Shown here: positions 9,301 to 56,955 of the stretch, one piece after another
Layout: the number at the start of each line of letters is the position of its first letter
Numbering within the stretch: position 1 is the stretch's first letter
Assembly (NCBI RefSeq): GCF_965363235.1
Contig: NC_134839.1
Coordinates: forward strand, 112,152,517 to 112,216,516
Reading direction: 5' to 3'
Length of the DNA stretch: 64,000 bases
Source of the DNA: Mytilus galloprovincialis
Lineage: Eukaryota; Mollusca; Bivalvia; Mytilida; Mytilidae
The notes under the pieces: model-generated
Told to the model about the DNA's origin: nothing
The model's database searches: none
Seen by the model: only the letters and a program-made list of their open reading frames with translations
Program-made: the position numbers and the translations under genes

Positions 9301-12296
9301 TTTTTGATGAAGTTGAAATTCAATCAACTTGAAACTTAGTACACATGTGTTCCTCTTGATATGATCTTCTTAATTACTGCCAAATTAAAGATTTTACCTA
9401 ATTTTCATAGTCAACTGAACATAGAAAATGATTGTACGGATGGGAAATCCATGTACTTATGACCTTTTCTTGTTTGAAGAAAAAAAATACATTTTAACGA
9501 TAATGGAACAAAGCAGCCTGGGTAAGTGGGGCTGCTTTTATGGTAATTCAAGTTAACTTTTATTCACCTTCTTCCACTTCAGAGCTATCAGCTCTTTGAT
9601 TTGTTTTAAACATATCAAGATTATATCGTTTCCAGGGCCGGATTAAGCCATTCTTTAAAGTGGGGTTCCCAATCCAGGAGAAAGGGGGGTTCCAACTATA
9701 TCTCCCCATTCAAATGCATTGATTGTCCCCAAAATAGGGGGGGAGGTAAGGGGTTGCAACCCCAGAACCCACTGGATCTGCCAACAGTTTTCATTCATTA
9801 AGATTTATTTATATGCCTCACTCACAGCTATGCATGATAATATACCAAGAGCAGGTTGTCTGAGTGTGAAACAGATGTCAATATGTCAAATAATGTAGAT
9901 CAAAAATATAAATCAATAATTTGGGTAACATTTATATTATACAAACTGTTGCTGCTTTACCTAACAGTAGTTTAGGTCTTACATTTATATAAAGTCCTTA
10001 CTCAGCTGTAAATAATGTGAACATTCATAGGTAATATTATATATACTGGTTTAATCTTTAGCTTTGTGTGTCCAGTTTATCCCTTTGGTCCACATGTTGC
10101 TACATTGTCCTAATTACATAAGTGACCACTATAATGTGTCTACTTATTGACATACTGTACAGGTGAGAGGATCATTATGTGATGTATTACATAGGTTATA
10201 ATGAGGAACTACAAAGATTATAATGATGTATCACATAGATTATATTGCCACATTACATAGATCATAATGATGGCCTGAACAAAAAATGAGGTGATAATTT
10301 TTAAAATACATGTAGATTACTCAGAATTCTTTATCTGACAAATAGCAAATATATATTTTGTTAGCACACAATTGAATTTAACCTTTTGGTATGATCTAGT
10401 GATTTATTGATTATTTAAGAGAAGGGACTACAGGGTCAATACAGCTGTTAGTAGACTATCAGTACAACCTGTCAAATAGCCAATACTTTCTGTGGTGGTT
10501 TGATTCATTTTGTCTATTAATTTGAAGTTTATGACATGAATTATATAACTGTAATTAAACTAATGATGTAACTGAAGTTAAAGTCATCCTTTCATAAATT
10601 TTATTACCCCATATGATAACATTTGTTTGTTGGTTGACCATTATGAAATATCTGTTTCACAAATGAGGAAGGATGATTTCCAAAATTTGTCATAACCAAA
10701 ATCCTGTCCTCTTCCTCTATTGTGACCTACCAAATTAGACTGATCTCTAGGTTTATACTTACATGAGCAACATGACAGGTGATACATCTTGATTAGGATC
10801 TGCCTACACTTCAGGGGCACCTGAGATCACCCCTGGGTTTTGGTTGAGCTTCTGTTGCTCACTCTTATATTTTCTTTGTTATGTTTTGTTGGTATAAGTT
10901 CGTTTTTGACTATCCCTTTTGTATTTTCTGCCTCTCTTTCCCAAGGCAATAAAACTTTTGCCATTGGAATTAGTATCATAATTCTTACTGTTTATCAGTA
11001 TTTTATTCTATATATCAGTAATTCTTATTGGAGTTTAAATGACAGGAAATACTAAAAGAATAATGTTTTTTTTATTTTTCAGGACTTAAGAAAATCTGCA
11101 GTATTAGTTTATGCTAATAAACAAGATATCAAAGGTTCCATGTCTTCAGCAGAAATATCTCAGCATCTCAACTTAACATCAATCAAAGATCATCCCTGGC
11201 ATATACAGGCTTGTTGTGCTCTCACAGGGGAAGGGTAAGATCAGTTATGTGTGTGTGTTATATATTGTCAATATCAGTTCTATGGTCATCCCTGGCATAT
11301 ACAAGCTTGTTGTGCTCTCACAGGGGAAGGGTAAGATCAGTTATGTGTGTGTGTTATATATTGTCAATATCAGTTCAAAGATCATCCCTGGCATATACAA
11401 GCTTGCTTTGCTCTCACAGGGGAAGGGTAAGATCAGTTATGTCTGTGTGTTATATATTGTCAATATCAGTTCAAAGATCATCCCTGGCATATACAAGCTT
11501 GCTTTGCTCTCACAGGGGAAGGGTAAGATCAGTTATATGTGGATTATATATACCGGTAGTGTCAAATCAGCTGACATTTCAATCAAAGATCATCCCTGGC
11601 ATATACAGGCTTGTTGTGCTCTTTAAGGGGAAGGGTAAGATCAGTTATATATATTATAAATGTATATATTGTTAATATCAGCTGCAAATTATTTATGTCT
11701 CTTGGACTATATATATGTAAGGATGTTAAGCCTTAAGATGACCTAACAATTTTCCTATATGCTGTGCCAAGTGTAACTTGTATGAAGAAAACAAGTTTTG
11801 GGTTGTATGCACAAGTACTCCCATAGCATACATACAATTTTTGAAACTGCAAAGCCTGGTAAAGTTTTTTTGTAAGACTAATATTCATATAAAATAGTTT
11901 ATATTGTTGTCTGGTCTATGGTCGGCTTGTTGTCTCTTTGACACATTCCCCATTTCCATTCTCAATTTTAAGTTGTAATGAAAATATATTTATTCACTTG
12001 CTTGACCATCCAAAAACAAAATTAATATATGTGTTATACTTAGGCTCAAGTCTCCTTTAAAATAGAAATATGGCCTTGTGATGCTTTACTATATGTTTAA
12101 AAATAGAGATAAAACATCTGTCTTTTCAATAGCAATACATATAAGCTTAAAATTCTAAAATGTGCTAGTTAACAATTGTTAATTTATGACTTTTACTAAC
12201 CAAAGGACATGTTTATTGAAATATGTGATTTTTTTCTCCATTTTCAGATTATACCAAGGATTGGAATGGATAACAAATCAACTCAAAAGACGGTGA
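187..12296 (+). CDS. ARL5: ARL5-type ADP-ribosylation factor-like GTPase, 3' four exons
   Basis: Small Arf-family GTPase that acts on trans-Golgi/endosome membranes; in other animals ARL5 recruits the GARP tether. Coding exons seen: 187-334, 708-791, 11083-11234 and 12248-12296, all with GT-AG borders and matching phases. They encode about 143 C-terminal residues; the family is about 179 aa, so the first ~36 (N-terminal amphipathic helix and P-loop) lie left of the window. Visible motifs are the effector-side stretch [11 protein letters not shown], the switch II motif [11 protein letters not shown] for guanine specificity, and a CALTGEG-type G5 region. The first exon seen starts with the last base of a Phe codon, as expected for the QFLMNE stretch of ARL5. 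The protein ends LKRR before TGA at 12294. The residues match ARL5A/B closely and better than ARF or ARL1. The choice between ARL5A and ARL5B is not meaningful in a mollusc. Confidence 0.95.
335..707. other. ARL5 intron, no recognised content
   Basis: 373-bp AT-rich intron between two ARL5 coding exons. Only the splice sites are recognisable. Confidence 0.7.
1160..1425 (-). mobile_element. Remnant of a retroelement-associated coding region
   Basis: On the - strand this stretch encodes a sequence with the cores [20 protein letters not shown] and LREAAECSS. That resembles the tail region found after reverse transcriptases in many invertebrate retroelements, with the common Gly-Trp ... Val-Glu-Val-Gly-x-Arg-Gly pattern. 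It is an isolated, decayed fragment inside an ARL5 intron with no complete element around it. The family assignment is from memory and weak. Confidence 0.4.
1795..2130 (+). repeat. Dispersed repeat, GTCYGTCCGT family, copy 1
   Basis: Begins with a TTTTTATGCCCCATTTATGG-like stretch, followed by TTCTGGTCTGT and AGTTTTTAATGAAGTTGAAG. Related copies lie at 9215-9470 (+) and 27330-27610 (-), with weaker pieces near 16560-16790 and 24990-25095. It has no clear ends or coding capacity. It is a mussel-type interspersed repeat of unknown class. Confidence 0.6.
2168..3254. repeat. Long inverted repeat (fold-back), ~1.1 kb
   Basis: The left arm (about 2168-2490) and right arm (about 2930-3254) are near-identical reverse complements over about 320 bp. 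The outer ends read TTTTACAGTGCTTATCCAG and its complement. The inner 440 bp also pair, less well: for example ATTAAAGGGAAATAATTT near 2590 pairs with AAATTATTTCCCTTTAAT near 2800. It lies inside the ARL5 10-kb intron on the same primary transcript, so it would fold into a long hairpin. No ORF or target duplication was recognised. Confidence 0.85.
3409..4206 (+). mobile_element. TACGACCGCA-ended element, short copy
   Basis: It starts with TTTACGACCGC and ends with CTGCGGTCGTATAAAGC, giving short inverted ends. Inside are modules with a TTGGGGTTCTTTGATATGC core that repeat every 120-160 bp. A longer copy lies at 43880-45900 with the same ends and the same tail (GTTCAGGGTTCAA..., GGAGCATCTGG). 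No transposase is visible; it is a non-autonomous element. Confidence 0.65.
4350..4556. mobile_element. TA-flanked MITE, 207 bp
   Basis: Terminal inverted repeats of at least 18 bp begin TACTGTAAATTCAGAAATT and end with the complement. They are followed inward by GCG-rich halves that also pair. TA dinucleotides lie at both edges, which fits a Tc1/mariner-type target duplication. A second copy with an expanded centre is at 53840-54385. Confidence 0.8.
4557..9200. other. AT-rich intron, no gene recognised
   Basis: Inside the ARL5 long intron. Only minor structure was seen: a 17-bp near-palindrome AAGTCTTCTGAAGACTT near 5825, and two copies of a CTCCATAATGACRCYTTTTGACGCC-like stretch near 7145-7205 followed by a short hairpin (ACACTTTGACTTCAAAGTGT). 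No coding signal beyond chance short open frames. Confidence 0.5.
9215..9470 (+). repeat. Dispersed repeat, GTCYGTCCGT family, copy 2
   Basis: Same family as 1795-2130. It shares TTTTTATG-CC-CATTTATGG, TCTGTCCGTCCGTCC, GAGGTAGTTTTTGATGAAG and a following stretch that describes the same consensus as the - strand copy at 27330-27610. Confidence 0.6.
9640..9790. repeat. Short G/C-rich interspersed repeat
   Basis: Local GC island in AT-rich intron: GGGCCGGATTAAGCC..., runs of G, and an ending CCACTGGATCTGCC. It resembles the inverted-repeat insertion at 30219-30347. Non-coding. Confidence 0.4.
10160..10290. repeat. Degenerate short tandem repeat
   Basis: Four or five imperfect copies of a ~30-bp unit with the core TTACATAGATTATAATGATG in the ARL5 intron. 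Confidence 0.45.
10795..10960 (+). repeat. Dispersed repeat also found at 20030-20270
   Basis: Shares AGGATCTGC-TAC, CACCTGA-ATCACCCCT and GTTTTTGGTTG-G-TT with the copy at 20030-20270, followed by a stretch about TTATGTTTTGTTGGT. Interspersed repeat; the open frame here is not a gene. Confidence 0.55.
11083..11234 (+). CDS. ARL5: ARL5 exon with NKQD motif
   Basis: The acceptor TTTTTCAG ends at 11082 and the donor GTAAGA starts at 11235. It encodes [15 protein letters not shown], then the [19 protein letters not shown] stretch, ending two bases into a Gly codon that is completed by the first base of the last exon (12248-12296). The 3' third of this exon, with its donor, is copied in tandem downstream in the intron (see the repeat at 11191-11640). 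Using a downstream donor instead would bring a TAA into frame directly after the first donor. Confidence 0.94.
11191..11640 (+). repeat. Tandem repeat copying an ARL5 exon end and its donor
   Basis: Five copies start at 11191, 11287, 11383, 11479 and 11591 (period 96, 96, 96, 112 bp). The first copy is the true end of the ARL5 exon (CATCCCTGGCATATACA... AGGGGAAG|GGTAAGA). Each later copy repeats the last ~46 exon bases, the GTAAGA donor and ~50 bp of intron. The copies differ at only a few positions. All five keep a GGGTAAGA donor-like site. Confidence 0.9.
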
Positions 12297-14930: not shown

Positions 14931-14949
14931 TATTAGAAACAGCTTTATT

Positions 14950-15010
14950 TTATTTGGTCGGGTTGTTGTCTCTTTGACACATTCCCCATTTCCATTCTCA
15001 ATTTTATTAT
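14950..15010 (+). repeat. Fragment of dispersed retroelement 3' tail
   Basis: GGTCGGGTTGTTGTCTCTTT through CATTCTCAATTTTA, the same terminal piece as the end of the element at 49955-51423. Another copy is at 11910-11970; reversed copies are at 26785-26840, 28625-28680 and 29570-29625. Confidence 0.6.
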
Positions 15011-15355
15011 ATGGAAATTTTTTACAAGCATTTACATCTTTGTAAAATACATTTTGCAGAAATTATATTTTTGGTAAAGATTTTTAACATAAGCAAAATA
15101 ATAACAACTATATTTCAAAATGTGACTTTTTTGGCAGTTTTTGGTGATGCCATAAATGTAAGAAGTTTGAATCTCTAAAACCAATGTGTAAGACAACATT
15201 GAAAAATTTAATGACTGTTATAAGGACGGCCAAGTAATGTCTTATGAATATCTGAAGGATATCATTAGGTGGATTTTAATTTAATTTTAGGGTCCAAAAA
15301 AGTGAACTTATCATACCTTCTCCTTTACTGATACTTAGCAAAAAATGTTAGTTTT

Positions 15356-16456
15356 TTGTCGAGCCTGCAACTTTTGTTGCAGAAAGCTCGACATAGGGAT
15401 AGTGATCCGGCGGCGGCGGCGGCTACGGCGGCGGCGTTAGCTAACTTCTTAAAAGGTTTATATTTTAGAAGGTGAAAGACCTGGATGCTTCATACTTTGT
15501 ATATAGATGCCTCATGTTACGAAGTTTCCGTCAGTCACATGTCCAATGTCCTTGACCTCATTTTCATGGTTCAGTGACCACTTGAAAAAAAAGTTCAGCA
15601 TTTTTGTAATGTTGAATTCTCTCTTATTATAAGTAATAGGGTAACTATATTTGGTATGTGCGTACCTTGCAAGGTCCTCATGCCCGTCAGACAGTTTTCA
15701 CTTGACCTCGACCTCATTTCATGGATCAGTGAACAAGGTTAAGTTTTGGTGGTCAAGTCCATATCTCAGATACTATAAGCAATAAGGCTAGTATATTTGG
15801 TGTATGGAAGGACTGGAAGGTGTACATGTCCAACTGGCAGGTGTCATCTGACCTTGACCTCATTTTCATGGTTCAGTGGTTATAGTTAAGTTTTTGTGTT
15901 TTGGTCGGTTTTTCTCATACTTTATGCAATAGGTCTACTATATTTGTTGTATGGAATGATTGTAAGGTGTACATGTCAAGCGGGCAGATGTCATCTGAAC
16001 TTGACCTCATTTTCATGGTTCAGTGGTCAAAGTTAAGTTTTTAAGTTTTGGTCTTTTTATCTAATATTATATGCCAAAGGTCAACTATATTTGGTGTATG
16101 GAAATATATTATGATCTATATGTCAGTCCCGCAGGTTTATTTGACCATGACCTCAATTGCACGGTTCATTGCACAGTGTTAAGTTTTTGTGTTTTGGTCT
16201 ATTTTTCTTACTAAAACTATAAGTAATAGGTCAACTATATTTGTTGTATGGAAGCTTTGTTAGCTGTACATGTCTGCCTGGCATGGTTCATCTGACCTTG
16301 ACCTTATTTTCATGGTTCATTGGTCTTTGTTTAGCTATCTTGGTTAATGTTAAGTTTATGTGACAGTTGTAATAAAGCTTTATACTTAGGACTATCAACA
16401 TAATTTCAATGATTAGTAAAGAAGGTGAGACATTTCAGTGTGTGCACTCTTGTTTT
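15356..16456 (+). repeat. Interspersed repeat with CGG run and tandem modules
   Basis: Opens with a hairpin (TCGAGCCTGCAAC...GCAGAAAGCTCGA), then a CGGCGGCGGCGGC run, then five or six modules of about 130-190 bp. Each module has the core CTTGACCTCATTTTCATGGTTCAGTG and CAACTATATTTG-TGTATGGAA. It ends near GTGTGCACTCTTGTTTTT. It is non-coding. It resembles a repeat common in mussel genomes (from memory). Confidence 0.65.
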
Positions 16457-22400: not shown

Positions 22401-25400
22401 TAAGTCACGAAAGTTGAGTGCACCCTAGAAGGTATACTTGAATTGGTCCATATTTATATGTATTTGTTTAAACCAATATCTAAATTTCTAAACTTGTTTT
22501 TTAGGAAATCATTGCTAGCACTGCTTGCAATAATCCTCCATCTATCAAGTACCAAATTGCCAACTATGAGAGTACAAGGGGAAATGATGTGGATTTTTTA
22601 TAAAATTTCTATTTGTTTAGCATTGAATCAACACTAAATATTATCATCCTTGAACAAAACATAAACCGTAACTCCGCTTCTAATTTATTGTAATACAAAG
22701 AATTTTTTAATTCAATCAAAGACTACAAGAAATAAAATTTAATTTGCAAAGTTGTTTAGGTAAACCTGTTTGTATGAAACATACATTATTATTATAAACA
22801 GGCCATTGATAAGAGTGTTTTCATTGGATGACGAATTAGTGCTAAGCTCCTCCCAATTTTAAGGTAATAATCATTTCATGGTTGAGCTAGCAAGGAAGCT
22901 AACCAAAGAATCTATCTGTAGCTTCATACTCGTTGGAATCTGCTGTAATGTTTTTTCAACAGTTTCCAATCTCTGGTTAATTATTTGTTTCACTTTCATT
23001 GGCATTACTGTAAATCATAGGTGTTTTGAGTGTATAGCACACTGTACTCAATATATACTCAAAACACCTATGACATTTTTCATGTTCTTTAAAATGACTA
23101 AAATTAGTTGAGTCTTCAACAAAATGAAGACAAGTGTGCATTATTTCTAGCGTAAAATCGCTGACAGTGTTTAGATAATAAATAATACAGACAATCATCA
23201 ATCAACAAAAATCCACTCGATTGATAACAAAAAAATATATAAATTACAACTAGATGCAGTCATTGACCATATGTCCGGCTTCGTAAAGGCGTGGTGTACT
23301 AGTTTTCTCTTGCCAATGTTACTTTTGGGATGTTTTATACGGCATTCAATAGTACGATATGTCCGGTTTCGTAAAGGTGTGGTGTACTAGTTTTCTCTTG
23401 CCAATGTTACTTTAGTATGTTTAATACGGCAACCAATAGTACGCGGCATGAATTTTAAAGAAAAAAATAATAATATGTATATATATGCGACTTTATCTTT
23501 CTCTCTTCTGAACAAATGTTAGCCATAAAAATTCTAGTGGACACGTTAAATTACATGACATTCTTCCTGATTTGACCAAGAGAAGTACTAGTAATACATT
23601 ACTTTATGACATTCTTCCTGATTTGACCAAGAGAAGTACTAGTAATACATTACTTTATGACATTCTTCCTGATTTGACCAAGAGAAGTACTAGTAATACA
23701 TTTACTTTATGACATTCTTCCTGATTTGACCAAGAGAAGTACTAGTAATATGATTTTTACTAATTTCTTTGATCTTTTATGTGCTTTAAAATCTGATGTT
23801 TTGGAAAGGAGTGCATTAACTCCCCGATTTGAACGTTATTGCACTGTCGTAGGATTATTCAACAATCTCCCATTAGAAAACCATTGGTGGGAGGAGCCAA
23901 CAAGCAGTGCATTAACTTCACTGAAAGTGCACAGTAAGGCTCCACCTCTTTTTTACATAAACAAATTATTTATAACTTCTTTTTGTGTGTATTTTTTAAG
24001 TTGTTTTTTTTTATTTGTCCATCGTTTTTTTCTGTTCCCAATGTTGTTTTTGTTACAGGATTTCCCTGGGAATTGTAAACTTCTTTTACTTGAATAGTGT
24101 GTTTTTTTCTAAGATTCGCACTAAAATTAAATTCTTGAGTAGAACCTCACAATATATAAAAGCCCACCGTTATGCTTTACATTAAATGAAACAAATTCAA
24201 AGTTAGTCAGTTAATAAGTCGGCAACATATTTATTCAATGAAAATTAAAGTTACAATTTGAGAATGTAACGGCATCAGAATCATTCAAACGGCATGTATT
24301 TATGATATCACCCAGACAGTGTTTCTTGTTCAAATTCCTTTCAAACGGTTCGGCCACAGCAGTTTTGGTTTGAACGGATTCCTGTAAACTGTCATTCATA
24401 TCACGATCGGACGGGGGGTTCAAGACATCCGATACTCGCTTTTGAATGTTACAGTTAGCGGTCTTGTATGTTCGAAGCCTTTCGTAGAGCGGTGCCAAGT
24501 CCTTTCCATAATCTGTTGCTCATCTATTCCTGCTTGATATAGCGCAGTAGCACATGTTCTTTTTCCCGAGTGGTTGGTAAAGTTGCCAACCAAGCCCCCC
24601 TTTTCACACATTTCACACATTAAACCATTCAACTTGTTCACTCCTAACGCGGACTTTCCGTAGCGTTGCTTATCTTGGACATCAGAAATAAGTGGTTTGC
24701 GATAAAATACGCCAGATGCCTTCAAGTATGTTTCATAGAAGTCAACTATGCATCTTGGTCCTGCAAAAAAAGAATTATGAACTTTAAAATGTATTTTCCT
24801 CGCTAAACTTATGTTGCTTGTATAGAAACAGAAAGAAATAACAAGTGGTATTTATTATTATTTAAAATTAATATAAAAACTATAGAAAACTCAACTGATT
24901 AGTTAGAAATGGTCTCACCGGCAAAATTTTAAATATTTTATGGGAAACAGTTGAAGATTCAGAAAATGATATAGGCCAGTCATCAATCCCGTTCTGTCTT
25001 GCTCGAGAGGTTCTTGAGATGAAGCGCCCACAATAGCTAGCTTTTGAGGGACGGACAGACAAACAAACAAACGGACGGTCGGACGGATGGACAAAGTGAA
25101 AATAAAAGACAACCACGTGCTTTTAATATGGGAGTCTTCAGATTTCAACAAGTTTATACGATTTAGCGTGAAACAAATTTGTCACAGTTTTGTCATTCTT
25201 TTTTTTCTTCAGAAATACATAGAACGTGATATGCTAATTGCCGTTTTAAAAACATGTTTTTTTTTAATAATTTAAATACGTATACACTTACCTCTTGCAT
25301 AGTGTTTGATATCTTTGTTATCCAGTCATCAATCGCCGAAACCACCTTTAAACGTCTTGTTGTTTCGACCAACGAATCTTATAAATCTTCCAGTAGCATC

Positions 25401-42900: not shown

Positions 42901-45900
42901 AATACAATGAGTATTTGACAAAGCATGCATGGTATGTTTGTTGTTAAATTTTGATTGATTTATAGTTTTCCAACCATGTGTGGAAACATTGAATGGTTTG
43001 AAATATATTAAATTTGTTGTCATGGTAACTCATAAATGTGGATTTTGTTTTCTTCTTTAAACACCTTGTATTTCAGTATGGTTTGAGCACATTTAAGAAC
43101 ATAAATTTATAGTTCCTGATTAATTTGCACAAATTTTGGCCAAACAAAAGCCTTATTGCCCCTACTCTTTTGCATATTTCAATATTCTGCAGAAAATATA
43201 TACATTACATAATTACATAATAGACATACATATCAGGATTAGCATAACTATGGCATATTATATATTACATGTTGCATTTTGTATTATGTTTATTTGCTTT
43301 TGATTACCATGAATACTGAGTACTAATTAAGTCTTTTAGTATTATATATTTTTATGATTACTAGGTCAAAATCTACATCACAAGAAACTAGTACAGACAA
43401 GCAAACAGATATTACAGGTAAAGAAAAGTGTAAAAAGCGTGGTGTATGCCATGATAGTAAAGTGAACAAATAAAAAAGGGGGATGTGGTATGATTGCCAA
43501 TAAAACAGCTGTCCACCATATGTCTATGTGGTTAGGTTTATCTTAACTTATCCTCATTTTCGTGGTTCATTGGTTAAATTTGCATTATAATGGCTAGCTC
43601 CATTTCTCTGAAACTGACCTTGACCTTATTATTATATATATGAATTTTAAAAACCTTGATCTTAAAGACTTTCACCATAAATTGTAATCAGGATCATTAA
43701 AGCAGTGGAGACATTTCATCATGTTCACTCTTTGTTCTAAAACCTGTTTGGTTGTTTAGCCTCATTTCTTTTCAGAATGGAGACATTAAGGATGTACAAC
43801 TCTGAGGAACCAAATATTTTTTCTTGGTACGGCCCTTTGAAAATATCCAATTTTGATGATTTCCCCATTATTCATCAATTTTTATACGACCGCAAAATTT
43901 GAAAAATTTTTCGTCGTATATTGCTATCACGTTGGCGTCGTCGTCTGCGTCGTCGTCGTCGTCCGAATACTTTTAGTTTTCGCACTCTAACTTTAGTAAA
44001 AGTGAATAGAAATCTATGAAATTTTAACACAAGGTTTATGACCACAAAAGGAAGGTTGGGATTGATTTTCGGAGTTTTAGTCCCAACATTTTAGGAATTA
44101 GGGGCCAAAAAGGGCCCAAATAAGCATTTTCTTGGTTTTCGCACTATAACTTTAGTTTAAGTAAATAGAAATCTATGAAATTTTGACATAAGGTTTATGA
44201 CCACAAAAGAAAGGTTGGGATTGATTTTGGGAGTTTTGGTTCCAACAGTTTAGGAATTAGGGGCCAAAAAAGGGCCCAAATAAGCATTATTCTTGGTTTT
44301 CGCACAATAGCTTTAGTTTAAGTAAATAGAAATCAATGAAATTTAAACACAATGTTTATGACCACAAAAGGAAGGTTGGTATCGATTTTGGGAGTTTAGG
44401 TCCCAACAGTTTAGGAATTAGGGGCCAAAAAGGGACCCAAATAAGCATTTTTTTGGTTTTCGCACCATAACTTTAGTATAAGTAAATAGAAATCTATGAA
44501 ATTTAAACACAAGGTTTATGACCATAAAAGGAAGGTTGGTATTGATTTTGGGAGTTTTGGTCCCAACAGTTTAGGAATAAAGGGCCCAAAGGGTCCAGAT
44601 TTAAACTTTGTTTGATTTTATCAAAAATTGAATAATTGGGGTTCTTTGATATGCCGAATCTAACTGTGTATGTAGATTCTTAATTTTTGGTCCCGTTTTC
44701 AAATTGGTCTACATTAAGGTCCAAAGGGTCCAAAATTAAACTTAGTTTGATTTTAACAAAAATTGAATCCTTGGGGTTCTTTGATATGCTGAATCTAAAA
44801 ATGTACTTAGATTTTTTATTATTGGCCCAGTTTTCAAGTTGGTCCAAATCGGGGTCCAAAATTAAACTTTGTTTGATTTCATCAAAAATTGAATAATTGG
44901 GGTTCTTTGATATGCCAAATCTAACTGTGTATGTAGATTCTTAATTTTTGGTCCCGTTTTAAAATTGGTTTACATTAACGTCCAAAGGGTCCAAAATTAA
45001 ACTAAGTTTGATTTTAACAAAAATTGAATTATTGGGCCTCTGTGATATGCTGAATCTAAACATGTACTTAGATTTTTGATTATGGGCCCAGTTTTCAAGT
45101 TGGTCCAAATCAGGATCCAAAATTATTATATTAAGTATTGTGCAATAGCAAGAAATTTTCAATTGCACAGTATTCAGCAATAGCAAGAAATCTTCAATTG
45201 CACAGTATTGTGCAATAGCAAGAAATCTTCAATTGCACAGTATTGTGCAATAGCAAATATTTTCAATTGCACAGTATTCCACAATAGCAAGAAATATCTA
45301 ATTGCACAATATTGTGCAATAGCAAGAAATTCCAATTGGATTTCAATTGGAGTTATCTTTCTTCGTCCAGAATAGTAGTTGAATCAACTTAAATCATTGT
45401 TTTATACAATATACAATGTATATTCACTTTTACTACCAACTGATAGATTAAAACAATCTTTACCATTCAGTGATAACAAGCACTTTTTTTACATTTTAAT
45501 ATTTTATGATGTATTTAAATGAGTAGTTATTGTTGCAAACTTCATTAGAAATTTGAATTGAGATCAGTTTTGAAATAAGGGAAAGGGGGATGTGAAAAAA
45601 AAAATTGGAGGGTCAATTTTTTTCATTTCAGATTTCATAAATAAAAAGAAAATTTCTTCAAACATTTTTTTGAGAGGATTAATATTCAACAGCATAGTGA
45701 ATTGCTCAAAGGCAAACATTTTTTTTTAAGTTCATTAGACCACATTCATTCTGTGTCAGAAACCTATGCTGTGTCGACTATTTAATCACAATCCAAATTT
45801 AGAGCTGAATCCAGCTTGAATGTTGTGTCCATACTTGCCCCAACCGTTCAGGGTTCAACCTCTGCGGTCGTATAAAGCTGCGCCCTGCGGAGCATCTGGT

Positions 45901-48900: not shown

Positions 48901-51900
48901 CATTTTATAAAAAATGAAATTATACTTAAGTTTATAAACAATTTTTGATAAAACCAAACATGTTTAATGTCAAACTGCAACTATGTACTTCTGGATTAAT
49001 AATAATTTGTTGTCTTTGTTTCCAGAGAAAAATGAACCATTAAAACGGAAGAGAGGACGTCCTCAAAAAAGAAAATCTGTCCAAGGTATTTATTATTTAA
49101 CATGTAATGAACTTTTTTAAGGAATGATAATTAATATAATAGACCACTATAAAATTAGGAGATGATTGCCAATGAGACAACTAGCCACTAAAGATTGTGG
49201 TTTACCCATAATAATGAATCCACAGTATAGATCTTCAATATTATTTGTAGGATCTCCATTTTATGGACATGTGTGTATAACTAGCATGTCTTGTGCCGAA
49301 AGTTATGTTATACACTGCTAATTATTATGTACTGACTTTTCACAGAGGACACTCAAAGTACAGATTTGTCTAAGAGTGAGAAGCAGGATTCTGAAATGAA
49401 AGTAGATAAAGGGGAGACCACTCAAATACCAAATGAGGAAGATATTACAAATCTCACAGTGACAAAATCAGTGGCTAATCAGGAAGACATTACAAATCTG
49501 ACAGTGACAAAATCAGTGGCTAATCAGGAAGACATTACAAATCTTACTGTGACAAAATCAGTGGCTAATCAGGAAGACATTGCAAATCTTACTGTGACAA
49601 AATCAGTGGCTAATCAGGAAAATACTAACACTATTGAGTCAAACACGACAGATGTTGTAGATGTAAATGAAGAAAAAGGTCAAACTACAGTAGATGACAT
49701 CAATATAAATCATAAAAAAGACAACTTAGAAAAAGGAAAGTCAAAAGAAACAGGTATTGATTGATGTTAGAAAAAAGATAAGAATATTAAAAGTAAAAGA
49801 AAACAGGTATTTAAATGGGCATTTAAAAAGTCAGAATGTGAATATATATGTTCAAACTCTTTTAGGTCATTTTTTAGTAGCAATAAACAAAAAAACTATG
49901 TCAATTGGACATGCTTTGATACTATATATGCCCTTGAATTTTTACTAATAACATTTTTGTTCGCTTTGGGAATTCCGTATATCGTCAGATAATCAGAATT
50001 CCAATGGGGACTAACTGTGCACCACTTATTTCGGACCTGTTTTTGTATTGCTATGAGTTACAATTTAAGACAAATACAAGCAAAGACCCATCGAAACAAC
50101 ATCTGATAAACAAATTTAATAATACTTTTAGATATTTGGATGATATTTTGGCTCTCAATAAGGACGACTTCAGTATGTATATTAAAGAAATTTATCCTGC
50201 TGAACTTACTTTAAATAAAGCTAATTCTAACAATGACCACTGTCCTTTCCTCGATCTTGATATCTATATCACTAACGGAAAGCTGAATACTAAAATTTAT
50301 GATAAAAGAGATGATTTTTCATTTCCTATCGTTAATTATCCATTTTTAGATGGTGACGTTCCCTTGTCACCATCTTACGGTGTTTATATATCTCAACTTG
50401 TACGATTCGCTCGTGTATGTAACAATGTTTTAGATTTTAACGAGAGAAATTTATGTATTACTGAAAAATTATTACACCAGGGTTTTCGATATCACAAACT
50501 AGTCAAAACATTTACTAAATTTTATCATCGGTATAAGGACATCATTCGTAAATATAGCTCAAGTTGCAGACTTCTTATACGTTCAGGTATTTCACATCCA
50601 ATTTTTTATGGAAATATTCTTTATAAAGCACAAAGGTGTCAGTATTCACCTCAAAAACTAACAAAACCTTTGAATAGACTTATTAAGAAGGGATATAGTT
50701 ACGATACTGTTGTCAGGTCATTAAAGATTGCATATTTTGGCGTTAATATTGATTCACTTATAGGGTCTTTGCATCGGAACTAAACACATTTATTCAAAAA
50801 CCAGTTGTTGGCATGACACGGGTTATGTTTTTCTCATATATGTTATGATGGTATGATACTAAACCCCTAACGGGAAGGATTGTGCCTGATGTTCATATGA
50901 TGAAATCATAATCTTTCAGTCAGTTTAATTGAAGTCTGGAGCTGGCATGTCAGTTAACTGCTAGTAGTCTGTTGTTATTTATGTATTATTGTCATTGTGT
51001 TTATTTTCTTTGGTTACATCTTCTGACATCAGACTCAGACTTCTCTTGGACTGAATTTTAATGTGAGTATTGTTATGCGTTTACTTTTCTACATTGGCTA
51101 GAGGTATAGGGGGAGGGGTTGAGATCTCACAAACATGTTTAACCCCGCCACATTTTTGCGCCTGTCCCAAGTCAGGAGCCTCTGGCCTTTGTTAGTCTTG
51201 TATTATTTTAATCTTAGTTTCTTGTGTACAATTTGGAAATTAGTATGGCGTTCATTATCACTGAACTAGTATATATTTGTTTAGGGGCCAGCTGAAGGAC
51301 GCCTCCGGGTGCGGGAATTTCTCGCTACATTGAAGACCTGTTGATGACCTTCTGCAGTTGTTTTTTTCTATGGTCAGGTTGTTGTCTCTTTGGCACATTC
51401 CCCATTTCCATTCTCAATTTTATCTAACAGTACTAGAGTAAAGATTAGAGTAAAAAAAAAACAAAATCATACATTAAATATTAAAAATAAAAAATTCCAA
51501 CCGATATCTTACCATGATAGGCTATAAATATGCTATCAAAATGGATAGGCTATAAATATGCTGTCAAAATGGATAGGCTATAAATATGCTGTCAAAATGG
51601 CAAAATCCATCATATAAATAAACATCAAAATGAAATGCAAAGTACAAATATTTAACAGTGCAAAATTTCCAAAATAATTTCTACAAACTGATTGCAAACT
51701 TGTAAAATTGTTAATCAGTTAAACAAGCAGTAGCATTATGGTTTTGATTGGTCTACATATCTGAATAAATTACTGATTGTTATTTATTTATAGAACCAGC
51801 CATTGTTGAGAAGACCCAGCCACAAAAAGTGGATACCCACGTAAAGATAGCTAATACATTACAGAAAATAACAGTCCAGAAAGGACAACAGAAGTCTATT

Positions 51901-54900
51901 AATCCTTTAGAGAATATTCTGCAGGCACAAGAAAGACTGTTGATTAACCCAAAACATCACAGAGGTTAGTTTATATCACTGTTTATCAAATTATTCTTAG
52001 TAGAGAAAATAAAAAAAATACATATGTAAAACAACAAATTATGGTTGCAGTCCCTAGTGTACATGTATAAGCAAAAAAATCTCAGTACGGTAGTCAGGAA
52101 TTTTTGAATTCCCTTCAATACACTGCCATACACAGAACTATTTCCCTTAAAGTTTAGCGCTTTGTTGGTCCATGTGTTTATGAAGTCTGATTTTCTTTGC
52201 CGCATCAGCTTTTCTATCTGTATTCATCCTTCCTGCTTATGAAAAATTGCGTTAAATTTAACCTTTTATGACAAGATGGCAGATTTTCGTCAAGCTTATA
52301 CTTTTTTAATTCATTTGGGAATTCCTTTTTTTTTCTTTTGCAGACCAAGCTCAACAAGAGTACTTCTCCCAGTTCAAATTTCCTGCTAGACATAATGTGA
52401 CTTATCATCTATGGTCACTAGGGGCATACAATGTTATGATCAGGTCTGGTTACCATGGAGTATATAAAGATACACAGCAGAAGGTTAGAAGTTTGAACTA
52501 CTGATATTAGAGTACAGGGTTGACTATGTTGACAAGTCAGTACAGTCACACTATAAACCTCGTCTGTAATAATGGATGTTTGCCAGTTTGACAGCTAAAA
52601 TGATGGAGGTTTCACTATATTAACAAGTCAGGACAGTCACACCCTCGTCTGTAATAATGAATGTTTGCCAGTTTGACAGCTAAAATGATGGAATATTCAC
52701 TTTGTATTTCAGGACTACACTCTGAAAAATAAGAATAGATCATTTAAACACTCAATACCATCACCAAAAACCAACAAACAATGAAAAAAAAAACAAGGTG
52801 TGACATCACTTAAAAATAAAAGAACAATTCTTTGAAAGATTTTTACAAGGATGTATATATATATTCCATAAAGAAAAAATCCCTGTCAAAACAGATACAT
52901 GTATCTCCCTTTATTGTTGATAATTCCATATTTCAAACTGAAAGACATGAATTAATAGATGTATGTATTAATTCTTTCAAGTATTTAGCTAAACTGTCTC
53001 TGAATAACCTAAGATCTGTCTCTAAATAGCCCTTAAGTGGTGTTCAACTAATTAAAACAGTTTCAGTTTCTGATATTGTAAAAAGACATGAAATGAGTTT
53101 AATTACACATAGTCGCCATCATATTTTGACCTTAATTTTTTTACAACACATGGTTTTAGATTATTGACAAAAGGTTGATTTCATATAAAGATGAAGAACA
53201 TGTACAATGTATATATTTTCAGGTATCTTTTATCCATGTATCCCCTAAGATGGAGTACCAGTCTAATTATGGTGTAGAACAGCTGACTGTTGGCGAGGTA
53301 TCCAAAGATTGGGCGTCGGCTTATGTCAGACCCAACTGTAAAATAATCAGAGGTATGTCAGAACGAACTGTAAAATTTTCAGAGGTATACATTTCTACTC
53401 ACCCTAAATTGTGATAAGAGGACAAAATATTTTATTTTCTCTTAAATTAAGAAATAATTCATTAGACTTGAATTTATATTGATATTCTTTGTTCAAGCTC
53501 CCATGAATGATTTTTATTCCAGTACGACACAATTCTTTTTATCATAGTTTATTAATGTTTCCATTGCATTATGACTTTCACTTTCACATTGGTGCATTTT
53601 CATGTAGAATGCTAATATTACATCTTTGTTCAGTGGTATCATATTTACAATGATTGACCTTGAGTATATCATTCATAAAATGCATATAACATGGGAATAT
53701 TGATTTGAACAGCCCAAATAAATTATGATGCTGCAAATTAGCTGGCATACAATATATTCATATTTTACCATAGGTGACGTGTGTATTCAAAGCATTTGGA
53801 GCACATGTTATTAGAATGTTTGATTAATTCAATCAATTATACTGTAAATTCAGAAATTATTGCATGCAGTTATTATGGCTTTCATCAAAAAGTGGAAGAA
53901 AATGCAAATTTATTTATCACGATTTCAAGAAAATGTGCATATAGATATAATCATCAAATTCAAAGTAAAATCACTTATTATTTCAATACTCATCAACTTG
54001 CTTTATTTCCTCATCCACTTGCATTATTTCCTCATCCACTTACATTATTTCCTCATCCACTTGCCTTATTTCCTCATCCACTTACATTATTTCCTCATCC
54101 ACTTGCCTTATTTCCTCATCCACTTGCCTTATTTCCTCATCCACTTGCCTTATTTCCTCATCCACCTGCCTTATTTCCTCATCCACTTGCCTTATTTCCT
54201 AATCCACCTGCCTTATTTCCTCATCCACCTGCCTAATTTCCTCATCCACTTGCATTATTTCCTCATCCACTTGCATTATTTCCTCATCCACCTGCCTTAT
54301 TTCCTCATCCACTTACATTTTTTCCTCATCCACTTGCCTTATTTCCATGAATAAAAACCCTGCAATAGTTCCTGAATTTACAGTATGTAGATTAACACAT
54401 ATTGTTTGGAGTGAAACTAAATTAATCTGAACTATTCTATTTCAGCCAGAGTCAATCCTTTGCAATCAGATATTGTCTCTATGAAGGAAGAAGAATTAAG
54501 TAAAATGTCAACAATTTCTCATGGTTTTAAGTAAGTTACCTTAAAAGTAATTGACTTTCAAAAAATATCTGTTTATTATCTGATTATATTTTATCTCAAG
54601 TGTAATAGACTATTTTCATATTACTGACTTTTGACTCCAGAGTTAATAATTTTTCAACTGGTTGGCTTCTCTGTGGTAGGTACGAACAGAATAACAGAAT
54701 TGTTTAACATTTGAATACCAGTGCACCTCAGCTGATAACCTCCAAGTCACCTTGAGTTTAATAAGGAAGAAATGACAGTTACATGTGTTTTAATTTTAAA
54801 ATTGTTAAGAATTTCTTCATCATTTTTTTCAGTCCCGCCAATGGATTTCAGATGTTAGCCAATGTGTTCCATAGACTTCATCAGTAAGTATTATTCATTG

Positions 54901-56955
54901 TCTGAAATAGCATGGTTTACATTAATGTAAAGAAAGAGAAACTTTTTACTCTTCCCTGAGACTACAAAGCAAGACGTTTTTTACTTTACGACTTTACGAG
55001 ATTGTTAATTGGGTAATCCTCAACAAGCAAACCCTTTTTAATCTTTGTTAGGTGGCAAACATGGTAGCTTTGGTGGAATTAATTTCCATTCAAACCCTGT
55101 GGTAAATAATACTGTCATCTCCTTCTTTAAAACCACTAGCCAAATGTAAAATATACTTAGTGGGAATCATCTACTGACGATCAATATATTTTGGCAAATT
55201 TTGCAAATAGAGAAAAATAATAATTATATTAATCTTCAAGATTATGTAAAAATTGTGTTTGCCCACATGTGACTGAAACAACAAATCAGAAATTCACGTA
55301 AAAAAATCTTCTCTAAATCAGATAGAAAGAACTGAATTATCTCCCTTGTTCATTTTCAATGGTGTATAAAAGAGAACTTGAAGTAATTTAGTTTTGAACC
55401 ATGCACTACAGGTTTTAAATCCAGCACAAAACTGCTTAACTGTGTATCGCCTTCATATAATTTTTTTACAGATGTTCACCTGGGCAGTACCTGTTACATC
55501 ATACCCCTGGTTCATCTGAATGTCAGATCAAAAATGCAACAGACAATCATAAAAGGTAGGTTATACCTAGAAGTAAGATTTGCTACATTTTTAGCTTTCT
55601 CCTTTTTGTCCTCTGCAGCAACATGGAGCAGGGTACATATACTATTTGTCCATTGGTCTCCACATCCATATTGTTAGCACACTCATTGGATGACATAACT
55701 GTTGATCAGTCACATATTATCTTTAAAGCTTTTAATAGGAATCAGAAAGTTAAGCATGAGAGAAAATCAACAGTTATGTCCAAACAACAGATAAAAATAA
55801 CAAAAAAAGAAAGAAATGCATTATTTTTATTTAGTTATTGCTTTTTTAGACTCTTTGAATATAAAGGAAATTATGACCATTGATTCATGTTATCTTTGTT
55901 TATAGGGGTACCAGTACCTATGACCTTCATATGAACCACTTCCGATTATTGGGATTAATTCATGTTATCTTTGTTTATAGGGGTACCAGTACCTATGACC
56001 TTCATATGAACCACTTTGGATTATTGGGAGGTGAAAAAGATAGTCACCAAATACCATGGATACCTATAGATACTAACTTCATACAAACAAGGTTTCACAA
56101 GAAAGGAAGAATACCAGCTACATTTGAACCAAAAGGTACTTACTGCAAGTCACATATTATTTTTTGTACTATTGTTTTTGCAAGAATAGATATACGGTAT
56201 AAATTATATTGGTTGTTTATATTTACTAACTATATTCTAGGCTAAGTTAGCCAACACAATATAAATAAACTTCCCCAGTCCTAACACTGTACATTACAAT
56301 CTGCTCTCACTGTGACTTGATAACCTAAGCTAAGCAATTCAACTCCGGAACCCTCCCCCTGCATTGTGACTTAGGAAATGTACTGGATAATGCATAAATT
56401 GAGTTGTCTATATCAATTCTCTGAGAGATATTCTCAAGAAAATCAGCTTTATTTTAAGAAGGAGTATTTGATACTCTTTACTATCAAGCGATACCGGAAT
56501 ATGTAAGTGCTTGTTGACCCTACTAAAATTCAGTTATTTTGCAACATAAATATATTGTTGAAGTTAACTGTTACTTATAACCTGTGGATATTCCAATTTA
56601 ACATATTTTGGGAAATCTTATCAGTTAAGCTTCAGTATGTTACCTCAATTGACTGCTTGCAGTGGCGCTGGTCTAGACGGGTTATTGGTCATGTCGATTA
56701 TCTTAATGTAATTACCGGTAGTAATTGTGAAAAAAAATAATGATTTCTTACCTTTTGACTCAATAATGACCCATGGACTCCCAAAATCAAAGCAATCATT
56801 ATATCATGATCCCTTAGTAGATAGAAAGCATATTCTTTGTAAGTAATGATAAATTAGAAATTTCTGTATGTTTCATTTTGTATTTATAAAGTAAGTTTTT
56901 TTCTTCAGATTACAAACCAGGAACTAAAAAGAAGAAGAAGAGAGGAAAACATTGA
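30881..56955 (+). CDS. ICE2: Little elongation complex subunit 2 (ICE2/NARG2)
   Basis: Subunit of the nuclear little elongation complex (ICE1-ICE2-ELL), which supports RNA polymerase II transcription of snRNA genes. Twenty exons: 30881-30903, 35589-36326, 36749-36911, 37330-37449, 38089-38217, 39161-39295, 39516-39675, 40252-42832, 43365-43417, 48734-48808, 49026-49085, 49346-49753, 51794-51964, 52344-52483, 53223-53352, 54446-54530, 54833-54883, 55472-55555, 55981-56135, 56909-56955. All are GT-AG and phase-matched: 5508 nt, 1835 aa (human 982). The start has an in-frame TGA upstream. N-terminal match: GHNFFFTQEAFNKYS (human TFFSRENYKDHS). Core: HAPNYNREWEIPF and VVYIDNPLP. C-terminal NARG2_C domain at ~1606-1820: VSPKMEYQSNYGVEQLT, SPGQYLLHHTPG, IPWIPIDTNFI, KGRIPATFEP. 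The long extra middle (490-1600) is acidic, Ser-rich and probably disordered. A poly(A) signal AATAAA is at 57248. Confidence 0.94.
31727..32789 (+). mobile_element. hAT-like element nested in the 1.9-kb transposon
   Basis: Termini CAGAGATGCAA and TTGCATCTCTG match the CAGRGRTGCAA pattern of hAT elements. The direct repeat CATAAA sits at both edges (6 bp; hAT usually makes 8). The interior has repeated GTCGGACC/GGTCCGNCAAAACT stretches near both ends and one ORF (next entry). Confidence 0.7.
32082..32354 (+). pseudogene. BED/TTF-type zinc-finger ORF of the hAT-like element
   Basis: 90-codon reading frame (earliest ATG-type start near 32082) with the core RSFNPKWQEGRSWLLYNNN, then MTSTICISHGK. 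That spacing (F-x3-W...W-L...C-x2-H/C) resembles the N-terminal zinc finger of hAT transposases, with one expected Cys replaced (STIC). The frame stops at 32354; after that come AGAGGGTAGA-type short repeats and an acidic reading (ESGSDNDSDYESDFEFEQNE) in another frame to 32565. The catalytic part is absent. Confidence 0.5.
34061..35205. mobile_element. Non-autonomous element with inverted arrays of a 16-bp motif
   Basis: Ends GTAGGACTATAAAGTGCGAT and its near complement at 35186-35205. Inside the left end (34061-34175) are five copies of CGCTAAAGTGCGATGG; inside the right end (35070-35205) are six copies in reverse. Both edges touch TATATATA runs, consistent with insertion in a TA repeat. 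The ~900-bp centre is non-coding. Confidence 0.85.
35589..36326 (+). CDS. ICE2: ICE2 exon 2
   Basis: Acceptor TATATTAG, donor GTTAGT. Encodes residues 8-254: the conserved GHNFFFTQEAFNKYS start, then a Lys/Glu-rich acidic region with nuclear-localisation-like KSKKSKKKGNEKK. It has three copies of an E-F-G-(V/I) motif at residues 107, 183 and 209. It is low-complexity and probably disordered. Confidence 0.92.
36749..39675 (+). CDS. ICE2: ICE2 exons 3-7, conserved N-terminal core
   Basis: Exons 36749-36911, 37330-37449, 38089-38217, 39161-39295 and 39516-39675. They encode FRYQNKKSNLNSREQSRYL (human FSRFSQREQRSYV), SDYNYLAPEADRYFK (human QDYNMLSDDARLF), KKKRVQLYPQYYNV, LLELGTVPKLVVPNM (human LLALGSVKYVKTVFPSM) and ACIVNNHAPNYNREWEIPF (human LLNNHGPTYKEQWEIPV). 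The donor sides of exons 37330-37449 and 38089-38217 are each followed by tandem copies of the exon end. Confidence 0.92.
37425..37578 (+). repeat. Tandem copies of ICE2 exon 4 end and donor
   Basis: Four units of 37-40 bp. The first contains the true exon end (GCTGATAGATATTTCAAG|GTATTTATTT). The next three read GGCTGATAAATACCCCAAG|GT, GCTGATCAATATTTCAAG|GT and GCTGATAAATATCCCAAG|GT. Each keeps a potential donor. Confidence 0.88.
38195..38565 (+). repeat. Tandem copies of ICE2 exon 5 end and donor
   Basis: Eight or nine degenerate units with core CATTGTTAGAACTG|GTAAGG and GCCAAACAAA. The first is the genuine exon end (CTAGAACTG|GTAAGG at 38217/38218). Spacing varies from 37 to 65 bp. Three units near 38345-38410 have a changed donor (CACGGGGAAGG); the others keep GGTAAGG. 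Confidence 0.88.
40000..40170 (-). repeat. Fragment of the CAGGAGCCTG family, reversed
   Basis: AAGATGTGGTATGATTGTTA, GACAACTCTTCACAGGAGAG and GGCCTTCAACAATGAG correspond to the end of the 17815-18090 family in reverse. Confidence 0.6.
40252..42832 (+). CDS. ICE2: ICE2 exon 8, large disordered middle
   Basis: 2581-bp exon, acceptor TTTTTTCAG, donor GTCAGT (phase 2). It opens with the conserved KKFMHRVVYIDNPLPAKELT and RDKNTMFYKYALRSHMGRLN (human VKVIYINSPLP, RERNQIFHEVPLKFMM). The conserved DLETFGM follows at residue 629 (human ELETFGV). The rest is Ser/Asp/Glu-rich with few hydrophobics. A proline-directed cluster (ETPLSPVPETPLSPV, FSPPTSPSKR) lies near 41371-41490. Acidic Ser runs (SDSESDEE) and basic RRKTRSS patches near the end suggest nuclear and phosphorylation signals. 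The reading runs into a stop at 42840 if the donor is not used. Confidence 0.93.
43365..49753 (+). CDS. ICE2: ICE2 exons 9-12
   Basis: Exons 43365-43417, 48734-48808, 49026-49085 and 49346-49753, phases 2-1-1-1-1. They encode SKSTSQETSTDKQTDIT, QDFNETETSEEYILKSDVSK, then a 20-codon exon NEPLKRKRGRPQKRKSV that looks like an AT-hook (core GRP flanked by basics). Next comes an acidic exon with four perfect 15-residue repeats. For 48734-48808 the donor GTGAGA at 48809 was chosen because it keeps phase; reading on meets a stop at 48844. These small exons have no visible human counterpart, so they are less certain than the rest. Confidence 0.75.
43880..45900 (+). mobile_element. TACGACCGCA-ended element, long copy
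   Basis: Begins TTTATACGACCGCAAAA and ends TCTGCGGTCGTATAAAG, short inverted ends shared with 3409-4206. After GTCGTCGTCGTCGTC it has four tandem modules of ~160 bp (core AAGTAAATAGAAATCTATG, GGAAGGTTGGGATTGATTTT, GTTTAGGAATTAGGGGCC). Then come ~150-bp modules with TTGGGGTTCTTTGATATGC, then the palindromic array at 45133-45335. No coding capacity was seen. Confidence 0.7.
45133..45335. repeat. 35-bp tandem repeat with internal palindrome
   Basis: About six units of TTGCACAGTATTGTGCAATA continued by GCAAGAAATCTTCAA. Each unit holds the palindrome TTGCACARTATTGTGCAA, so every unit could form a small hairpin. Confidence 0.85.
45901..47198. other. ICE2 intron 9, no recognised feature
   Basis: Non-coding apart from chance open frames. 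A GTCTCCCTTCCGGAAGTATT stretch near 47001 is promoter-like in composition, but no gene follows it. Confidence 0.4.
47199..48103. repeat. Fold-back element, ~290-bp arms
   Basis: Left arm 47199-47490 and right arm 47810-48103 are reverse complements with ~85-90% identity by eye. The ends are GGGGTTCCTCCACAAGCACT and its near complement. Matching inner blocks include TAAATCTAAATTGATTTATC / GATAAATCAATTTAGATTTA and TTGTTGTCGGAATCATCC / GGATGATTCCGACAACAA. The ~320-bp centre is unrelated to known families. Confidence 0.85.
48329..48470. mobile_element. Small hAT-type MITE
   Basis: CAGGGCTGCCAAAAATGCGT at the left and ATTTGC...AAGTTGGCAGAACTG at the right. Inner ATGCGTGAGA / TCTCACGCAT blocks also pair. 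CAGGGCTGCCAA fits the hAT terminal consensus. CTGTAC and CTATAC at the borders may be a decayed target duplication. Confidence 0.6.
49438..49617 (+). repeat. ICE2: In-frame 45-bp coding repeat in ICE2 exon 12
   Basis: Four adjacent units of exactly 45 bp, each encoding EDITNLTVTKSVANQ (one unit has Ala for Thr in DIAN). The nucleotide copies are nearly identical, so the expansion is recent. Residues ~1444-1503 of ICE2. Confidence 0.95.
49955..50783 (+). mobile_element. Reverse transcriptase fragment of a Penelope-like or related element
   Basis: One open frame with PMGTNCAPLISDLFLYCYE, FRYLDDILALN (the metal-binding YLDD box), CPFLDLDIYI, KIYDKRDDFSFPIVNYPFL and YGVYISQLVRFARVCNNVL, ending GSLHRN. 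This matches a reverse-transcriptase type common in bivalve and lancelet genomes. I place it with Penelope-like elements with moderate confidence. Only the 3' half of the RT is present, so it is a partial fossil copy. It lies in ICE2 intron 12, same strand as the gene; the 3' tail follows directly. Confidence 0.65.
50784..51423 (+). mobile_element. 3' tail of the same retroelement
   Basis: Non-coding tail joined to the reverse-transcriptase frame: TTGGCATGACACGGGTTATG, AAACCCCTAACGGGAAGG, CGCCTGTCCCAAGTCAGG, GGACGCCTCCGGGTGCGG, then the end CATTTCCATTCTCAATTTTA. Pieces of this tail without any coding part occur at 11910, 14950, 18165, 26785, 28620 and 29567. Confidence 0.7.
51515..51602. repeat. 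28-bp tandem repeat, three copies
   Basis: GGATAGGCTATAAATATGCT continued by RTCAAAAT, three units in ICE2 intron 12. Confidence 0.85.
51794..56955 (+). CDS. ICE2: ICE2 exons 13-20, NARG2_C domain
   Basis: Exon 13 (51794-51964) has NPLENILQAQERLLINPK (human DPVGEILKMQDELLKPI). Exon 14 (52344-52483) has ARHNVTYHLWSLGAYNVMIR. Exon 15 (53223-53352) has VSPKMEYQSNYGVEQLTVGE. Exons 16-18 carry MKEEELSKMSTISHGF, NGFQMLANVFHRLH and CSPGQYLLHHTPG. Exon 19 (55981-56135) has TYDLHMNHFGLLGG, IPWIPIDTNFIQTRFHKKGR and IPATFEP. Exon 20 (56909-56955) adds a basic tail KKKKKRGKH, then TGA. The order and spacing match the human C-terminal domain. The acceptor of exon 19 is duplicated 75 bp upstream, in frame. 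Confidence 0.93.
52530..52705. repeat. Tandem duplication, ~95-bp unit
   Basis: Two copies sharing ACAAGTCAGKACAGTCACAC, CCTCGTCTGTAATAATG and GTTTGCCAGTTTGACAGC (copy 2 has a short deletion). Intron 14 of ICE2. Confidence 0.85.
53322..53386 (+). repeat. Tandem copy of ICE2 exon 15 end and donor
   Basis: Two 32-bp units: TATGTCAGACCCAACTGTAA...CAGAG|GT (true donor at 53353) and TATGTCAGAACGAACTGTAA...CAGAG|GT. The second donor-like site is followed by ATAC. Confidence 0.85.
53840..54385. mobile_element. TA-flanked MITE with an internal 21-bp minisatellite
   Basis: Same terminal repeats as the MITE at 4350-4556 (TACTGTAAATTCAGAAATTA left, CTGAATTTACAGTA right). The centre (about 53995-54350) is ~17 units of CTTATTTCCTCATCCACTTGC. 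The 21-bp period gives 7-residue repeats in two frames, which are not genes. ICE2 intron 15. Confidence 0.85.
55883..56032 (+). repeat. ICE2: Tandem duplication of ICE2 exon 19 acceptor and exon start
   Basis: 75-bp unit, two copies: ATTCATGTTATCTTTGTTTATAG|GGGTACC (split: acceptor at 55905 and 55980), then the exon start encoding GTSTYDLHMNHF. 75 bp is 25 codons and the frame between the two acceptors is open. Use of the upstream acceptor would add 25 residues without a shift. Confidence 0.92.
56136..56908. other. ICE2 intron 19, no recognised feature
   Basis: Non-coding, AT-rich. A chance open frame at 56507-56740 has no recognisable domain. Confidence 0.5.

Follow-up and report, generated by a model that had tools for sequence, protein, structure and literature searches.

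Tandem repeats that run across exon-intron boundaries are known from lancelets, where they are called mirages. According to the available text of two papers, they occur at both kinds of boundary and keep splice signals in many of their copies; the amphioxus genes named there are Adh3, the globins BflGb6 and BflGb9, TnC and PGBD5 (PMC3087553, PMC3902484). The accessible part of the first paper describes units that evolve in concert and arrays whose length differs from one haplotype to another, while its authors regard splicing as undisturbed (PMC3087553). In human genes of segmental duplications, internal tandem repeats with minisatellites averaging 30 bp x 4 copies can cross exon-intron boundaries, as an excerpt of the source states (PMC2812944), and a potato intron was gained, by an excerpt of another, through a tandem duplication crossing an intron-exon boundary (PMC4974935). 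Here we describe repeats of this kind in the mussel Mytilus galloprovincialis. In a stretch of 64,000 nucleotides (C2:112152517-112216516, the window), five splice junctions of an ARL5 gene and of a likely ICE2 gene are repeated in tandem. Elsewhere in the genome, about one in twenty tested exon edges is tandemly copied, splice site included, into the adjoining intron, which is commoner than chance.

Five repeated splice junctions in the window

The repeats were determined by direct sequence reading and by a scan with Tandem Repeats Finder (TRF), and the splice sites were placed by splice-site scoring. A sequence-only reading of the window had claimed five tandem arrays straddling splice sites, at four donors and one acceptor. 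All five were confirmed by both methods, and the scoring placed donors at 11235, 37450, 38218 and 53353 and an acceptor at 55981 inside the arrays. Of the 24 exons it had counted, our models hold only 19. The exons below were placed by splice-site scores, in ARL5 also by matches to PDB and the Arf family and in the last exon also by a profile match; the repeats were placed by TRF and sequence.

11083-11234, plus strand: ARL5 coding exon, 3' edge repeated, donor 11235
11183-11648 (TRF 11183-11541/11648), plus strand: ARL5 junction array, 96 bp unit
37330-37449, plus strand: ICE2-like exon, donor 37450 repeated
37416-37575, plus strand: ICE2-like junction array, 38 or 76 bp unit, diverged
38089-38217, plus strand: ICE2-like exon, donor 38218 repeated
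38188-38581, plus strand: ICE2-like compound junction array, units of 51, 37 and 51 bp in succession
53223-53352, plus strand: ICE2-like exon, donor 53353 repeated
53322-53388, plus strand: ICE2-like junction repeat, 32 bp unit, 2.1 copies, almost wholly exonic
55981-56135, plus strand: ICE2-like exon, acceptor 55981 repeated upstream, weak NARG2_C match
55879-56029, plus strand: ICE2-like junction repeat, 75 bp unit, 2.0 copies

The ARL5 array consists of the real junction and four intronic copies. The GT donor is intact in all four (4/4), and the last copy is diverged. A whole-genome search that ignored very common words matched this array to no second location besides its own place. In the ICE2-like gene, the copied donor at 37489 sits 39 bases past donor 37450, in frame and with an open reading. 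The donor of the compound array at 38218 is kept in 4 of the 5 counted copies, and its first step of 51 bp is open and in frame. At donor 53353, the bases TAT were seen by eye at both ends of the duplication; the intron that starts with this repeat also contains an array of 17 copies of a different, 21 bp unit (53989-54346). The copied acceptor at 55906 would add 25 codons, in frame and open, to the exon that starts at 55981.

The Arf-like, ARL5 identity of the first gene is well supported. Its exon matched the Arf family in a profile search (E 1.8e-14) and, among PDB chains, matched best to 1yzg (E 1.4e-22), whose deposited name is ADP-ribosylation factor-like 8; the ARL5A chain 2h17 was also matched (E 3.1e-20). 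Of the two gene names given by the sequence-only reading, this one thus stood, whereas ICE2 is likely only: the name comes from one NARG2_C match (E 5.8e-4, 19.8 bits) under the cut-off of 30.8. The 15 ICE2-like exons are each open singly. The joined chain does not form one continuous reading frame, which leaves some doubt about individual exon edges or about small exons that were overlooked.

For counting, a fixed test was used, in which a 40-base segment across the junction had to recur within 300 bp with a score of at least 20. In the window, an intron-side copy was found at 4/37 modelled ARL5 and ICE2-like junctions, compared with 2.4% of the window control positions. Donor 53353 with its 32 bp unit fell under the threshold and is therefore outside the 4/37.

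Splice junctions elsewhere in the genome

We took a sample outside the window, in the same genome, to avoid relying on the region that had drawn attention. The genome searched comprised 1.385 Gb in 331 contigs. From six conserved families, 132 of the 411 listed exon matches were used: kinesin (50 of 125 listed), adaptin (30/33), E1-E2 ATPase (12/12), myosin (20/93), chaperonin (17/49) and SNF (3/99). The first 72 exons were the best matches by search and the later 60 were hand-picked near the tops of the lists. The splice matrices were entered from general knowledge of the donor and acceptor consensus. After a splice-score cut-off of 4.5 and the removal of duplicates, 224 junctions remained (117 donors, 107 acceptors); edges that failed were not replaced.

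Intron-side copies were found by the fixed test at 11/224 junctions, at 8/117 donors and 3/107 acceptors. Exon-side copies were found at 0/224 junctions of the six-family sample. By family, the matches came from kinesin (6/81), adaptin (3/48), ATPase (1/21) and myosin (1/36). Most of them are minisatellites and not single duplications. Nine of these arrays, named by their sampled loci, have the following units and copy numbers by TRF or copy count.

L010: 41 bp x 8
L013: 90 bp x 8
L024: 133 bp x 6
L030: 94 bp x 3
L036: 86 bp x 18; the 86 bp array recurs in the adjoining stretch L049
L038: 69 bp x 11
L041: 48 bp x 4
L070: 72 bp, 20 copies counted
L097: 50 bp x 6

Over the 11 arrays of the sample, the units measure 25-133 bp, or 41-133 bp when the two weak matches are left aside, and those of the window 32-96 bp. 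The splice dinucleotide is intact in 76/85 copies, 67/75 in nine sample arrays and 9/10 in the window; this count omits L084 and the L024 donor, and the sites 37450 and 53353 contributed no copies at its threshold. In the L036 array it is intact in 9/17 counted copies, and in the other eight sample arrays in every copy. This adaptin donor array, with a unit alternating between 86 and 88 bp, seems to continue from L036 (1609-3168) into L049 (1-687) over about 3.4 kb. Within the copies, mismatches amount to 3.8% at the splice site, 4.4% on the exon side and 8.0% on the intron side, and the arrays are strongly homogenised. In L070, the units match each other at 95% and each of the 20 copies counted is 1-2 bases off the exon, as would be seen if homogenisation bypassed the exon.

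Further suspected junction arrays were noticed after the counting and are outside the 11. An acceptor in L005 was missed by the splice-site score. In L016/L135, a unit resembles by eye a kinesin exon tail with its donor, in about 17 copies in the stretches read. In L037/L051 an array abuts an acceptor. At L051 809-1490, a 3' splice site is repeated in 16 copies of 42 bp that adjoin an adaptin exon but take in only a few of its bases, a variant confined to the acceptor. In the match list, the kinesin matches that recur at C1:40016930-40017332 also suggest a junction array. A clear exon was sought beside the arrays of L014, L028, L051 (58 bp) and L037 (52 bp), and none was found.

Whether 11/224 exceeds chance was analysed with several controls. 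A junction can fall only in the first unit of an array, however many copies follow. When flank positions were restricted to the first (or last) unit, the null was 1.95% (n = 6949), and 4.4 matches were expected against the 11 observed (P 0.005). A null from every flank position with a tandem copy within 500 bp on the given side, about 7.5%, would suggest no excess; it was rejected because of this first-unit limit. For near-identical copies (score at least 36 of 40), 8/224 junctions compared with 0.53% of the intron first-unit positions (P 3e-5). Splice-like decoys were taken from the antisense strand of these loci with the matrices used for the junctions; they had copies at 15/1121 (P 0.0016), and near-identical ones at 3/1121 compared with 8/224 (P 5.5e-5). 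Splice-like sites on the sense strand, outside the matched exon, gave 37/1288, between the junctions and the antisense decoys, as would be expected if some of them are real unannotated junctions.

The arrays themselves were also counted. When all arrays were kept, dispersed elements included, 11/49 lay on junctions and 3.0 were expected (P 3e-4). Among locus-unique arrays with a TRF score of at least 300, 9/20 lay on the 224 junctions and 1.03 were expected, with the classes (dispersed, duplicate, on-junction) assigned by hand after the array list was seen and with the L041 array, which stops 20 bases short of the junction in TRF, put on the junction from the copies found in the fixed test. 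A filter that drops dispersed-element arrays gave ratios of 5.6-18 and was set aside; it had not been applied to the junction matches, of which L010, L041 and L097 would fail it. The conclusions rest on the unfiltered and the antisense controls. Base composition explains little of the excess, as the units of intron arrays have 33.4% G+C compared with 30.9%. An excess of junction arrays is supported by these results, and its size is uncertain.

Origin of the arrays

We consider it fairly probable that the arrays are splice-junction minisatellites of the lancelet mirage kind, formed by local duplication and with their extra copies shed by splicing. A short, mostly exonic stretch including the exon edge and the splice site would be duplicated in place, and the array would then expand by slippage or unequal exchange. 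The real junction would remain at the exon end of the array, where the site that is used should lie, and the additional copies would fall into the intron and be spliced out. Since they would leave with the intron, the protein would be unchanged and the array tolerated, close to neutral. Duplications within exons would survive only when the frame is kept. What we observed are local arrays that extend to the intron side, with mostly intact copied sites and mostly exonic units, in excess over matched controls.

The exonic make-up of the units bears on this origin. The exonic share of the unit is on average 0.74 over 10 sample arrays and 0.73 over the five window arrays, compared with about 0.5 for even placement (P 0.00035 for the sample). 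If the only issue were that the real site has to win, the opposite bias would be expected, as a short exonic share should weaken the copies. Three tandem arrays found by TRF also lie in frame within ICE2-like coding exons.

41027-41125, plus strand: in-frame coding duplication in the large ICE2-like exon, 48 bp x 2.1
41370-41437, plus strand: in-frame coding array in the large ICE2-like exon, 24 bp x 2.8
49432-49620, plus strand: in-frame coding array in an ICE2-like exon, 45 bp x 4.2

The array at 49432-49620 exemplifies exonic duplications that can persist although they include no splice site. Together, the mostly exonic units and the three coding arrays point to exonic DNA as the substrate, and exonic DNA may be more prone to duplication here than intronic DNA. 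The sequence-only reading had left the choice between a mutational bias at exon edges and selection for the junction copies. The mostly exonic units favour a mutational origin with splicing as the shelter; selection may still act in ICE2, as a stop codon is met in only 1/5 window arrays compared with 8/10 of the sample.

A stronger claim is put forward only tentatively and is more doubtful than the origin itself: splice junctions, donors above all, might be a main birthplace of gene-borne minisatellites in this lineage. Exonic DNA by splice sites would then undergo duplication at several times the rate of intronic DNA, perhaps via a process tied to transcription or splicing, and several percent of the exon edges of conserved genes would carry homogenised arrays of decoy sites.

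Several results weigh against an origin by local duplication under the shelter of splicing. The excess varies from 2.5 to about 9 times by method. Independence of junctions and control positions is assumed in the P values and holds only approximately; the 11 matches come from 9 places, as L038 and L041 are about 3 kb apart and L024 was counted twice. L084 and the L024 donor are weak matches among the 11. Chaperonin (0/32) and SNF (0/6) junctions had no copies. The matches were concentrated in the first sample (9/117), and the second sample (2/107) was at the background level. An excess over introns at large, which the sequence-only reading had named as its test, was thus seen in the out-of-window sample (11/224 compared with 1.95%) but not in its second half. 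Finally, in 4/5 window arrays the reading stays open as far as the next copied site, in three of these also in frame, a feature that strict neutrality would not require.

The excess could instead come from survival and sampling: a conserved exon copy would keep an array recognisable, young mobile DNA would dilute the introns, or the family search would favour exons with repeated pieces. Many arrays in the introns are dispersed elements, the kinesin, myosin and SNF candidates were only partly scored, with the top rate in kinesin (6/81), and the choice of 132 among the 411 listed matches included the 60 hand-picked ones. However, the excess is greatest for near-identical and hence young copies, where survival counts least, and the families with all candidates scored still gave 4/101 (adaptin 3/48, ATPase 1/21, chaperonin 0/32). 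As the whole explanation this is unlikely, with a small but real chance of being right. Such effects can explain part of the excess.

It is likewise improbable that arrays arise evenly in a repeat-rich genome and that some land on exon edges by chance. Arrays are indeed common, with a tandem copy within 500 bp on the given side at about 7.5% of the flank positions, and the second sample was no richer than background. Chance is opposed by the first-unit null (11/224 against 1.95%, P 0.005), by the antisense decoys (P 0.0016) and by the counts of arrays (P 3e-4 or smaller), and even placement fails to predict the mostly exonic units.

The copied sites might also be functional, as alternative splice sites or in splicing control, and be kept by selection; we hold this to be highly improbable for the arrays in general. 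The dinucleotide is intact in most copies (76/85), and there is one human example, the interferon-induced gene 6-16 (G1P3/IFI6), which is said, in a Nucleic Acids Research (NAR) title of 1995 listed among the references of PMC2572611, to contain a minisatellite that provides multiple splice donor sites. In the sample, however, the next copied site, if used, would bring a stop codon in 8/10 arrays, and only 4/10 units are divisible by three, near the one third expected. The splice site (3.8%) and the exon side (4.4%) also differ little in mismatches, with 8.0% on the intron side, and in homogenised arrays the intactness of the sites therefore needs no selection. In the window, a stop is met in ARL5 alone. 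All four ICE2-like arrays can be read through to the following copied site, and in three the step (39, 51 and 75 bases) also keeps the frame; few as they are, these cases keep the functional reading alive for ICE2. Window steps divisible by three are 4/5 (96, 39, 51 and 75, not 32), too few to judge.

That the introns themselves arose when an AGGT segment was duplicated in tandem, the Rogers model, has a very slight chance: AG/GT lies inside the units and the lancelet globins have been proposed as such a case in the available text of PMC3087553, but the window arrays occupy one intron end only in a comparison that was not systematic (the ARL5 intron extends to 12247, but its array covers just 11235-11648), and other kinesin matches in the genome also start near profile position 242, the site of the L010 array, which suggests an old intron. 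Nothing here demonstrates the formation of a new intron or the use of a copied site.

Other repeats and open frames were seen nearby. Two arrays whose 51 bp units are almost identical lie about 2.5 kb apart in the window (23555-23750 and 26197-26650), without a match in the other sampled loci; by eye, the unit has an acceptor-like stretch on the minus strand. A 66 bp satellite with at least 61 copies and 96% matches (59978-64000) runs off the window end, and part of its unit presumably resembles the A-box region of tRNA-Leu. The arrays at 3663-3982, 43976-44597 and 44590-45125, with units within 126-169 bp, match 1-2 other sampled loci, and a 168 bp family (L016 918-1234, L021 991-1326, L033 3504-4003) matches 14. 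The recurring arrays of 126-169 bp are probably dispersed elements with internal tandem repeats. By eye, a 281-codon open frame inside an ICE2-like intron (49938-50783) resembles a reverse transcriptase, and one on the minus strand (24420-24851) a tyrosine recombinase.

Comparison with known systems

The sequence-only reading did not know the pattern as a described feature of bivalve genomes. Among the papers listed in a literature search there was no bivalve or mollusc report of such arrays, which does not establish absence from print. Patterns of this kind have been described before, as the lancelet mirages, and the occurrence here is new and apparently common. This suggests that mirages are not peculiar to lancelets. 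The birth of minisatellites and the origin of new splice sites or introns are both difficult to observe directly. A genome with young arrays of splice-site copies at several percent of its exon edges provides many natural trials of the choice among near-identical sites and of the fate of copies over time. It is also a warning for annotation, as the arrays can yield false exons and false alternative splice calls.

The mussel arrays resemble the amphioxus mirages in that minisatellite-like repeats span the exon-intron boundary, at five junctions in the window and 11/224 elsewhere. Both donors (8/117) and acceptors (3/107) are affected, the unit lengths fall within the range of about 10-160 bp given in the available lancelet text, and the AG/GT signals are kept in many copies (76/85 here). 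They differ in belonging to another phylum, in a frequency that was sampled with controls, in copy numbers that reach 17 and 20 within the sequence read, and in their mostly exonic units. In lancelets, splicing and length variation were examined, whereas the present arrays are known from the sequence of one assembly.

The G1P3/IFI6 minisatellite is, like the present arrays, built of donor sites; unlike them it concerns a single gene and, by its title, provides multiple donors. The repeats of the human segmental-duplication genes occur in recent primate duplicates only and alter the exon/intron structure, whereas the mussel genes are conserved and the copies lie on the intron side only. In the potato case, a new intron was formed. 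The mussel arrays share with it the boundary-crossing duplication only, without a demonstrated new intron.

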